From: Nitrospirota bacterium
Lineage (GTDB): Bacteria > Nitrospirota > Thermodesulfovibrionia > Thermodesulfovibrionales > UBA6898
Length of the DNA stretch: 44,856 nt
Direction: 5' to 3'
Assembly (NCBI GenBank): GCA_004321925.1
Contig: SCQH01000097.1
Span: forward strand, 1-44,856
Part shown: piece after piece, positions 2,692 to 27,927 of the stretch
Layout: every line of letters starts with the position of its first letter
Numbering within the stretch: the first letter of the stretch is position 1
The notes under the pieces: model-generated
Seen by the model: only the letters and a program-made list of their open reading frames with translations
Told to the model about the DNA's origin: nothing
The model's database searches: none
Translations under genes and position numbers: made by a program

Positions 2692-3357
2692 TCAGTTCCC
2701 GATCGTATAGCCGACGCCCCTGACGCTCAGGATGATGTTCGTAGCTGCATGCTGGGCAAGCTTTTCACGCAGTGATTTTATATGGACGTCGACAAAATTG
2801 GTGTTCGGATTGAAATCATATCCCCATATGTCGGAAAGCATCTGCGCCCGGGATATGACCTTCCCCTTGTTCTTCAGGAGATAGATGAGGACCGCATATT
2901 CCTTGGGCCGCAGGGGGACCTCGTCCTCCCCGCTATAGACCTTATGGCCGATGGTATCGATCCGGAGGTTCTTATAGGTCAGCTCCGTAAGCTTGTCCTG
3001 CTTTCTCCGCAGCAGCGCATGCACACGGGCAAGGAACTCATCGAAGGAAAACGGCTTTGTCAGGTAATCGTCGGCCCCGCTGTTGAGACCCAGGACCTTG
3101 TCCTTGACCGAATCCTTCGCCGTCAGCATGAGGATCGGGGTCTGGATGTCCAGGCTCCTGATCTCCTTGCAGAGGTCGATCCCGCTGATGCCCGGCAGCA
3201 TAATATCCAGAATGAGAAGATCGTACTGGTTCTTCTTCGCATAAGAAAGCCCCGACTCACCGTTGACGGCATGATCGACCGTATACTGCTCTTCCTCAAG
3301 CCCCTTTTTTATGAAGTTGGCAACGCCCTGCTCATCTTCTACAAGAAGTATGTTCAT
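2692..3357 (-). CDS. OmpR/PhoB-family response regulator
   Basis: 221 residues: an N-terminal receiver domain and a C-terminal winged-helix DNA-binding domain. The receiver shows the acidic pair (E7, D8), phosphoacceptor Asp51 in LILDIMLPG, Thr79 and Lys101 (TKPF). The winged helix contains RPKEYAVLIYLL and ends with the recognition-helix and wing region VDVHIKSLREKL ... VRGVGYTIG, typical of the family. It is the first gene of the operon with the kinase at 1445-2671 and is divergent from the ampG-like gene at 3497. The 139-bp intergenic region probably holds promoters for both sides. Regulation of the neighbouring permease is possible but only inferred from position. Confidence 0.95.
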   Translation of the reverse strand: MNILLVEDEQGVANFIKKGLEEEQYTVDHAVNGESGLSYAKKNQYDLLILDIMLPGISGIDLCKEIRSLDIQTPILMLTAKDSVKDKVLGLNSGADDYLTKPFSFDEFLARVHALLRRKQDKLTELTYKNLRIDTIGHKVYSGEDEVPLRPKEYAVLIYLLKNKGKVISRAQMLSDIWGYDFNPNTNFVDVHIKSLREKLAQHAATNIILSVRGVGYTIGN

Positions 3358-25534: not shown

Positions 25535-25912
25535 CTATTTGTTTTCGCGGCTGTATGCCTTGAAGGTAATGATCAGCCCAATGATCAGCAGAATGCCTTC
25601 CAGGACCATAAATACCGTCGTGCTTGTGTTTGCAGTACCTTGTTGATAGGCGCTCGCCGCGAACATTCGGAAAAGGCCAAGAAGAAGAAAAAACCATCCC
25701 GCAAGCGTTATCAGCACGGTCCAATCACGTGCCCAGCGATTATGCGCGCGGACGGTTGCAAGGCCTGCAACAAACATCAAGACGCCGGACAGATAAACAA
25801 CAGGCGGGATCTGGGCGTCGTAAAGATGCGGCTGCACAAGCGGGAACTCAGAAACGATCATCGCTACGATAGTGGGGCCTGCCAGCCCCCCGATCTGCTT
25901 TGATTTGTTCAA
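25535..25912 (-). CDS. Small four-helix membrane protein
   Basis: 125 residues with hydrophobic segments near 10-25, 37-55, 65-88 and 100-118. The start is TTG at 25912, preceded by GGAGGA four bases upstream; the ATG at about 25932 on this strand runs into a stop after seven codons. The family is not recognised. It lies directly downstream of the attC site of the gene cassette at 25942-26501, so its upstream region has probably been displaced by cassette insertion. Confidence 0.7.
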   Translation of the reverse strand: MNKSKQIGGLAGPTIVAMIVSEFPLVQPHLYDAQIPPVVYLSGVLMFVAGLATVRAHNRWARDWTVLITLAGWFFLLLGLFRMFAASAYQQGTANTSTTVFMVLEGILLIIGLIITFKAYSRENK

Positions 25913-25941
25913 AGGATCCTCCGATGCTTCATAGGCGACAA

Positions 25942-26027
25942 CGAGTTAAATAAGGCGCGGTGGCGACCAGCTAAATTGAAATCTAAAAAGCGCTTATTCA
26001 CCGTCGCCTTGATTTTTTTGTTAAGCC
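25942..26027 (-). repeat. attC-like recombination site
   Basis: Read on the minus strand: outer box GGCTTAAC (26020-26027), a 9-base spacer, AAGGCGACGGTG (inner arm, 25999-26010), a loop region, CACCGCGCCTT (25952-25962), a 9-base spacer, and the G of the crossover site at 25942. The inner arms pair over 11 bp with one extra unpaired A. Equal spacers on both sides and one extrahelical base are typical of integron attC sites. The outer box is the exact complement of GTTAAGCC found at the other cassette end (26495-26502). Confidence 0.72.
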
Positions 26028-26033
26028 AGCCTT

Positions 26034-26483
26034 TCATTTTTCTGTATTCTTAATTTCCAGTTTTGAATATCTTATAATATCGTCTTCAAGTCTCTCGGTA
26101 TCCTTTATAAAGCCGTAAATATTAATTTGGTTGCTGTCTTTTTCTCTGATTATAAAATCTCTTGGTTTATCAAGAAAGATTGAATACATGTTTTTCCTTT
26201 TAATTGAAGCCACATCTTCCCAGAGAATGGTTTTTTCCATAGAGAAACGCTTTCTTATGACTTTTGATTCGTTTATATGTATTTCCGTTTTGAGAAGTAT
26301 GAAAACCATAAGGAGCGGTATCGCACAGAAAAAGTACGTTAACACGATCGGCAGGACAACAACCCAAGATAATGTCGGCGGCAGGCCGATTTTGAAGAAC
26401 GCAGAACTAGCAATTAAAGGGAAAGCAAATATTAGCCAATAATTCAAGAACACTTTCCATAATGAATATTTATATATTTTCAT
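26034..26483 (-). CDS. Cassette-borne membrane protein, possible PH-like domain
   Basis: 149 residues. Two hydrophobic segments (about 13-30 and 40-63) are followed by a soluble beta-rich part (TEIHINESKVIRKRF, TILWEDVASIKRKN, IIREKD) that recalls bacterial PH-like domains. The gene is markedly more AT-rich than its neighbours. It occupies nearly the whole cassette, as is usual. Function is unknown. There is no good ribosome site upstream; cassette genes are often poorly expressed away from an integron promoter. Confidence 0.75.
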   Translation of the reverse strand: MKIYKYSLWKVFLNYWLIFAFPLIASSAFFKIGLPPTLSWVVVLPIVLTYFFCAIPLLMVFILLKTEIHINESKVIRKRFSMEKTILWEDVASIKRKNMYSIFLDKPRDFIIREKDSNQINIYGFIKDTERLEDDIIRYSKLEIKNTEK

Positions 26484-26502
26484 TTTTCATTTACGGCTTA
26501 AC

Positions 26503-26697
26503 ATCTTTTTTTATCCCGCAGCGGCATTTTCTCTTATGTTTGGCTTTTGCTCTGCCTGCTGACAGGAAAATAGAGGAATAATGCCCCGTTTTGGCGGTAT
26601 AACTCCGTGTACGGGGGTGTTATATCGCTGCGGTATAATTCGGCTGTTCTGTTATTGCGAACGAAAGAAATGCCCGAACTGATCTGCTTTTGCTCTT
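26503..26697. other. Intergenic stretch upstream of the cassette
   Basis: No gene is visible. It holds short imperfect palindromes such as TATAAC-TCCGTGTACGGGGGT-GTTATA (about 26596-26622) but no promoter or terminator I can support. Confidence 0.4.
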
Positions 26698-26920
26698 TGA
26701 AGCCTGACATGAAGTCACTCCCCTTTTATTAACCCGGCAATTGAATATCCCAATCTGTCATCCCCGCTTGTCGGGGATCTTTCTTTGTTTTCGGAGAGAT
26801 TCCGGACAAGCCGGAATGACAAAGTTAAATTATTTGATTGCCGAATTAATAGTTGCCATTCCCCGTCTTTCAGCAACTATTTTATACCTTGCCGTTCAGA
26901 GCAGTGTCAAGGGGAAACTG
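26698..26920 (+). repeat. Interspersed repeat, copy B, interrupted
   Basis: Same ordered blocks as 24523-24612 (AGCCTGACATGA; CCCCTT; CCCCG ... CAGCAACTAT; TTATACCTTG; GTGTCAAGGGGAAA), but split by the palindromic element at about 26735-26843. Confidence 0.6.
26735..26843. repeat. MITE/REP-like palindromic element
   Basis: Outer inverted repeat CGGCAAT/ATTGCCG at 26735-26741 and 26837-26843. Inner arms at 26756-26779 (TGTCATCCCCGCTTGTCGGG...) and 26798-26821 (...CCGGACAAGCCGGAATGACA) are imperfect complements, and each arm is itself a hairpin. The inner arm type, GTCAT-CC-GCTTGTC-GG-ATC, is a widespread environmental-genome repeat. Confidence 0.7.
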
Positions 26921-26976
26921 TTTGTTTACAATAGAAACCCATTGCTTAGGAGCTTTGCTTCCGTTAAGCTAGTGAT

Positions 26977-27927
26977 ATGAAGGCGGTTGTGATCGATAGA
27001 TACGGGGATAACAGCGTTATCGGGATCAGGGATTTGCCGAGTCCGGTCCCCGGGGCCGAGGATGTGCTTATCAGGGTCCATGCCGCATCAATCAACCCGG
27101 TGGACTGGAAGATCCGTCAGGGCATGACCAGGATCCTTACCGGGTCAAAATTTCCGAAGGTCCTCGGGAGCGAGTGTTCGGGGGAGATCATTGAAACCGG
27201 CGCAAAGGTAACAGGATTAAGGGTAGGCGACAGGGTGATCGGCTTTTCGGGCATCCGCCGGCTGGCCGCTTTTGCGGAGCATGTGGTCGTCAGCCAAAAG
27301 AACGCCTTCCCGATGTCAGGAAATATCAGCTTCGAAGAGGCCTCGACCCTCCCTGTGGCCGGGCTTACTGCCCTCCAGTCACTTCAGAAACTCGGTCATA
27401 TCTCCCCTGACAGCAATGTCCTGATCAACGGGGGCTCTGGCGGGGTCGGGACCTTCGCCATCCAGATCGCAAAGATATTCGGGGCCCGTATAACCGCGGT
27501 GGCGAGCCGTCCCAATGCGCCGCTGCTGAAAGAACTCGGGGCTGATGTGACGCTCGATTACAGGCAAGAGGACTTTACGAAAAGCAGCGAGCGTTACGAT
27601 ATTGTCTTTGACGCGGTATCAACCCGGTCCTTCAGCGAATGCAGACGGGTGATGACCCCTGAGGGCGTCTATGTCAATACCCTGCCCACGCCTTCAGTAC
27701 TGCTCTACCAGTATGGCATCGGCTTTTTGATGAAGAAGAAGGCCAGGAGCGTCATGGTGAGCCCCAACTCAGTGGATATGCAGTGGATGCGCCAGCAGAT
27801 CGAAGCGGGACGGATCAGGGTTGTGATCGACCGGGTCTATCCCCTGGACCAGGCAGCCGAGGCCCTGGCCTACAGCGAGGCCGGACATGCCCGGGGAAAG
27901 GTGGTCTTAACGGTCCCCGGACCCTGA
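26977..27927 (+). CDS. Quinone-oxidoreductase-like MDR dehydrogenase
   Basis: 316-residue medium-chain dehydrogenase/reductase of the zinc-independent quinone-reductase subgroup. N-terminal GroES-like domain (AASINPVDWKIRQG, GSECSGEIIETG), then a Rossmann domain with INGGSGGVGTFAIQIAK. The catalytic zinc ligands of alcohol dehydrogenases are lacking. Such enzymes reduce quinones or enones with NADPH; the substrate is not known. No neighbour explains its role. Confidence 0.88.
   Translation: MKAVVIDRYGDNSVIGIRDLPSPVPGAEDVLIRVHAASINPVDWKIRQGMTRILTGSKFPKVLGSECSGEIIETGAKVTGLRVGDRVIGFSGIRRLAAFAEHVVVSQKNAFPMSGNISFEEASTLPVAGLTALQSLQKLGHISPDSNVLINGGSGGVGTFAIQIAKIFGARITAVASRPNAPLLKELGADVTLDYRQEDFTKSSERYDIVFDAVSTRSFSECRRVMTPEGVYVNTLPTPSVLLYQYGIGFLMKKKARSVMVSPNSVDMQWMRQQIEAGRIRVVIDRVYPLDQAAEALAYSEAGHARGKVVLTVPGP

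Follow-up and report, generated by a model that had tools for sequence, protein, structure and literature searches.

A solitary integron gene cassette at a candidate attI site: a probable relic integron in a Nitrospirota genome

How does a lone integron gene cassette come to stand in a chromosome with no integrase gene beside it, and into what kind of site was it inserted? CALINs and single attC sites are usually taken as debris or as random secondary insertions. The question is raised here by a stretch of 44,856 nucleotides (the window), which is contig C118 of the 3.2-Mb draft genome of a Nitrospirota bacterium. A preliminary description, made from the letters of the DNA, had noted in it a solitary cassette with both ends readable and had placed that cassette in a secondary, non-attI site. 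In the current analysis, we examined the cassette, the site that received it, and the related sites in other genomes of the family.

The cassette and its attC

The features of the cassette and of its 3′ side are as follows.

25942 to 26501, minus strand: gene cassette (from TTAAGCC to CTCG), bounded by two crossover points; recognized by the 8-nt match of its start with the attC R″ box and by the attC model
26034 to 26483, minus strand: cassette ORF, intact, 149 aa, with predicted membrane helices in its N-terminal half
25936 to 26026, minus strand: attC, consisting of R″ GCTTAAC, a spacer of 9, the arm AAGGCG[A]CGGTG, the arm CACCGCGCCTT, a spacer of 9, and a hybrid R′ GTT/GTCG; supported by a leave-one-out covariance model and by covariation
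25935 to 25941, minus strand: 3′ junction, at which the chromosome resumes as (G/)TTGTCGCC, about 30 nt ahead of the TTG start of the next gene
25535 to 25912, minus strand: next gene 3′ of the cassette, with a TTG start

Core site, ORF, and attC lie where the preliminary description had put them. GTTAAGCC at 26495 to 26502 (minus strand) and GGCTTAAC at the 5′ end of the attC are exact complements (8 of 8 nt), as predicted if the cassette start and R″ come from one recombination site. Read on the minus strand, the attC runs GGCTTAAC-AAAAAAATC-AAGGCG[A]CGGTG...CACCGCGCCTT-ATTTAACTC-G/TT; it has 9-base spacers on both sides, and its arms pair at 11 of 11 positions around one extra A. The R″ and R′ boxes, spacers, paired arms, and extrahelical base that define an integron cassette are therefore all present. 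The local GC content is 38.8% (26001 to 27000), against mostly 50 to 60% elsewhere in the window.

The strict R-box consensus (RYYYAAC/GTTRRRY) was too narrow for these genomes, since it found no attC in the true integron on contig C19; arm pairing and a covariance model were used instead. By arm pairing, the window attC was the sole 11/11 site on either strand of the window, and 10 shuffles of the window gave no site at 11 and one at 10.5. A covariance model built from the attC sites of other genomes only, the window's own site being excluded, scored it at 97.7 bits (E = 3e-22). Across 20 aligned attC sites, 95% of the arm and core cells were paired, and compensatory changes were found at 9 of the 11 arm pairs, a level of covariation reached by none of 500 shuffles; slid controls paired at only 33 to 50%. 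The arm helix also formed in a single-strand fold of the attC, although the energy was ordinary (z of about −1), so that the evidence lies in architecture and covariation and not in stability. The suspected attC, with its equal spacers and its extra base, is on these grounds a real one, and the window cassette is a genuine integron gene cassette.

The cargo is predicted to be a small membrane protein. Its only better-than-chance match in Pfam was to DUF6585 (23.3 bits, below the 27.7-bit cut-off), a single-sequence structure model was poor (pLDDT of 60), and the label "PH-like" given to it earlier is unproven. Among 296 genomes of the phylum we found a single homologue (53% identity), in a chromosomal, noncassette setting, which fits the earlier suggestion of a new cassette cargo; no relatives were found on viral contigs or plasmids. 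The homologue's neighborhood (L086, 8877 to 13943, in G008:C13) lacks any attC and consists of an array in which a large protein and small membrane proteins recur. A large repeat protein is present there twice, each copy being coupled to a small membrane protein, and the homologue follows; these couples resemble effector-immunity pairs. As a guess from this neighborhood, the cargo could be an immunity-type small membrane protein. The first cassettes of L126 (G000:C87) and L044 (G003:C54) also encode similar-looking small membrane proteins, and membrane cargo may be common in the cassette pool of these genomes.

The sequence ahead of the cassette

Two features on the 5′ side bear on the nature of the target.

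26499 to 26525, minus strand: attI-type core, GCCGCTGCGGGATAAAAAAAGAT/GTTA; the same core lies beside intact intI (L080/L192, L205) and ahead of different cassettes elsewhere
26594 to 26643, minus strand: 50 nt in common with the sequence that lies between intI and attI in a relative, G024 (78%, E = 7e-7)

The 5′ flank of the cassette reads ...GCGGGATAAAAAAAGAT/GTTAAGCC, which is of attI type, and the crossover falls between G26502 and T26501. The sequence abutting the cassette start (26503 to 26662) is 79% identical over 160 nt, up to the crossover itself, to the flank of a different, three-cassette array in the same genus (G003:C54). As a profile of the attI we took the 27 nt that lead up to and include the crossover. 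It matches the region where the core lies divergently next to an intact intI, in G014:C35 (L192, with intI from 3466 on the plus strand and attI at 3268 to 3354 on the minus strand) and in G023:C65 (L205), which is the attI position of a normal integron. At least 12 more sites have this core, without intI, directly ahead of different cassettes. When the bases that follow the crossover are compared with the reverse complement of R″ in the first attC, they agree over 7 to 9 nt in 13 of 16 attI-attC pairs (L192 and L197, each with a match of 8, being counted in the correct register, and L200 and L201 being identical in sequence); the expected chance of an 8-nt match, given GTT, is about 1 in 1,000.

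In homology and in the exact register of its crossover, both directly observed, the window thus has an attI at the 5′ end of its cassette. The integration site is, judged by these two properties, of attI type and not a random secondary site, and its putative function as an attI core rests on homology and position. The earlier proposal of a non-attI site is not supported by this comparison, given that the 5′ flank is homologous to other cassette leaders and the core is shared with attI sites adjacent to intI. That proposal had drawn on the bases TTGTCG, but these show merely what lay 3′ of the crossover, and the informative side is the 5′ one.

Two less favorable accounts of the locus can be weighed against these data. 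A chance hairpin and a chance 8-nt match might lie beside an ordinary AT-rich gene, for which the unremarkable fold energy of the attC could be cited; however, the leave-one-out covariance score and the compensatory changes in the arms speak against coincidence, as does the presence of attCs found by the same model in 24 of the 27 family genomes (an IntI above cut-off occurs in 18 of the 27, and similar attC sequences were found by blastn in 11). We regard this account as refuted, with practically no probability left to it. Alternatively, IntI may have put the cassette into a secondary site of the chromosome, of attG type and without relation to attI. Insertion of this kind is established (Loot et al. 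2024, cited in PMC12901181), and both the absence of integrase beside the cassette and a 3′ side (TTGTCG) outside GTTRRRY would suit it. Yet an attG is by definition unrelated to attI or attC, and here the 5′ flank is homologous for more than 150 nt to sequences ahead of other cassettes, with a core common to attI beside intI; a random target would not recur so. These recurrences largely refute the attG account, which we consider improbable. As for the surroundings, the 3′ neighbor gene of the cassette is absent from 40 relatives, and the 5′ neighbor (ADH) has unrelated surroundings in G003 and G004.

Integrase genes, leaders, and the likely history of the locus

The statement that no integrase is nearby holds for the whole window, in which we found neither an intI nor any detectable remnant of one; the window contig is accordingly no complete integron with intI next to attI. 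The genome's sole intI above the family cut-off lies on C19, with cassettes beside it, and about 24 attCs are spread over 12 contigs. Since the IntI encoded on C19 belongs to another clade and has a different attI type, no cognate enzyme is present now. The attI beside it, CTGCAGGGTATACTAATAT/GTT, represents a second attI type. A copy of this type, nearly identical over about 75 nt, occurs on C106, where the absence of intI rests partly on a contig edge because C106 starts near the site, and related attI sites without intI occur on C98, C54, and C66 of the same genome. A second platform with the window's type of attI, on C37, has a post-crossover match of 8 of 8 and an attC-like end beyond the model's reach. 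The genome therefore combines a single intI with several attI-type sites, of two kinds, that have no intI beside them. Directly upstream of the C106 copy (L124, G000:C106, 1 to 100) is an inverted repeat, AGTCATGGTGTC...GACACCATGACT, possibly the end of an insertion sequence where intI was lost.

Across the loci examined that have the window's type of attI, intI forms a graded series: it is intact in two (L192, L205), truncated in five, and undetectable in the rest, including the window. Beside the same attI, the N-terminal 33 codons remain in L199 and 61 in L204, C-terminal pieces remain in L202 and L207, and L208 keeps both ends with the middle gone. The assemblies are drafts, and at some loci without intI that end near a contig edge the gene may be hidden; for the window locus, we infer the loss of intI from its relatives. 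Pairs of platforms with truncated intI end in their similarity at attI and have different cassettes behind it (L202/L207 in G017, 85% over 1,450 bp; L199/L204 in G019, 94% over 299 bp). Separately, the two-cassette attI array L200 (G019:C11) equals L201 (G006:C190) at 100% over 3,966 bp in different genera, reflecting either recent transfer or bin contamination. The attC 3′ ends in L037 (G004:C16) and L042 (G013:C207) run into GTGYG sequences, and the same downstream sequence, GTGTGTGCCGGACATGGCACAGAACTTAC, follows two such attCs in different genomes. This suggests an element with a group II intron-like start inserted at attC; an Rfam search for a group II intron after these attCs gave no match.

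In the window, a leader with the following features precedes the cassette.

26503 to 26920, minus strand: leader lacking an integrase gene, about 290 nt long when the inserted repeat is left out; nine conserved copies occur across six genomes
26881 to 26910, minus strand: promoter-like element, TTGACA (26905 to 26910), 18 nt, TATAAA (26881 to 26886), conserved in the nine leader copies
26726 to 26854, no strand assigned: MITE-like dispersed repeat with terminal ATTAATTCGGCAAT/ATTGCCGGGTTAAT, in the leader between promoter and attI
26534 to 26710, minus strand: short ORF of 58 codons between promoter and attI, a similar frame being open in several other leader copies

A search by similarity found related leaders in other family genomes. 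The nine copies carry TTGAC[AT]-N17/18-TATAAAA at 231 to 283 nt ahead of attI; the distance is 396 in the window because a repeat of about 129 bp has been inserted, of which at least six other copies exist in the same genome at 90 to 98% and many in relatives. A generic promoter scan missed the window element, as the scan requires T at the last −10 position, which here is A. Several loci with an intact or partly kept intI have a TTGAC-type promoter-like element 65 to 66 nt before attI, which suggests that in leaders of the window's type the original cassette promoter has disappeared and another, farther upstream, has been acquired. In most copies the leader frame has 50 to 73 codons and ends 8 to 9 nt before the crossover, compared with 32 nt in the window; as a coding frame it is putative and unproven.

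One locus shared by two species allows the cassettes behind such a leader to be compared directly. Chromosomal sequence of more than 1.6 kb, and the leader with it, is common to G019:C169 and G017:C61; the two are 95% identical over 300 nt to the crossover and diverge completely at G/TT, where unrelated cassettes follow (a 165-aa ORF in G019:C169 and a 147-aa ORF in G017:C61). No intI is present in the flank common to both. Most simply read, the two loci record an exchange of cassettes, in trans, at an attI without integrase; it is less likely, though possible, that intI was lost twice, independently, once the exchange had taken place. The evidence comes from the locus of the relatives, the window locus being without an ortholog to compare.

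Taken together, we think it likely that the locus is a relic integron with one cassette, that is, an attI with a promoter-bearing leader, now without its intI and filled by ordinary IntI recombination at attI. On this account, an integron integrase would have inserted a circular cassette by attI × attC recombination at G/TT, the target being a genuine attI of a lineage-specific IntI clade. The intI formerly beside it would since have been lost, its place now being taken by the leader with its TTGACA-N18-TATAAA element, which a MITE-like repeat presumably entered later. As this element points into the cassette, it probably drives transcription of the cassette gene. Both the catalysis by IntI and the promoter activity of the leader are, of course, deduced from the DNA. 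Possibly, the window attI would still be usable in trans by an IntI that is encoded elsewhere or arrives from outside.

A special form of the relic-integron explanation, compatible with it, contrasts with a series of independent wrecks. Here, the attI leader, free of integrase and equipped with a promoter of its own, would be a derived unit, a kind of satellite platform, that has multiplied in these genomes and is kept and filled in trans by any IntI present. Consistent with this, the nine leader copies share one promoter-attI layout across six genomes and at least three genera and, one orthologous pair apart, lie in unrelated surroundings; cassettes were swapped at an orthologous integrase-less locus; and platform pairs with truncated intI within a genome are 85 to 94% identical and end at attI. 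On the other hand, the truncated intI genes indicate that plain decay also occurs, no mechanism for copying the leader was found, and the swap could predate two independent losses of intI. We therefore advance this form only tentatively. A broader version is similarly doubtful: the integron of this family might have become distributed, with one integrase on the one hand and, on the other, numerous scattered attI platforms free of integrase, which carry a conserved promoter and a short leader ORF of their own and are filled and swapped in trans.

Relation to known systems

A search of a limited body of literature on orphan or solo attI and on integrons of Nitrospirae found nothing relevant. In class 1 integrons, attI1 is accompanied by a Pc promoter that reads into the cassette and by the short ORF-11, which reaches attI. 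The window locus resembles this arrangement in having a promoter-like element directed into the cassette and a short ORF reaching toward attI; unlike in class 1 integrons, that element lies about 270 nt before attI (the repeat left out) and does not overlap intI.

CALINs and SALINs are attC clusters or single attCs without a nearby integrase, and single-attC cases are granted to be possible true positives (IntegronFinder 2.0, PMC9024848). The window locus, an attC-flanked cassette with no intI nearby, falls under this heading. However, it keeps an identifiable attI and a promoter-bearing leader and is thus a cassette-bearing platform, not a stray attC. Comparable, too, are the degraded chromosomal integrons of Xanthomonas, in which intI has been inactivated or lost, cassettes are kept, and CALINs occur at several loci away from intI (PMC12444791). 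What distinguishes the present case is the many attI copies in one genome, the two attI types, and the different cassettes at an orthologous integrase-less attI. Insertions at attG (Loot et al. 2024, cited in PMC12901181) are likewise made by IntI away from intI, but the window target is homologous to attI over core and leader.

In these genomes the attachment site can be recognized even where no integrase accompanies it, and loci with a truncated intI stand between those with an intact gene and those that have lost it. Two questions thereby become testable: do attI sites outlive, and multiply beyond, the integrase, and can a single IntI act on several of them in trans? Moreover, because attI is too variable for standard searches, part of the so-called CALINs may be unrecognized attI platforms. 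The window locus founds no new class; it extends the observations already made on CALINs and SALINs and on degraded integrons (PMC9024848, PMC12444791).
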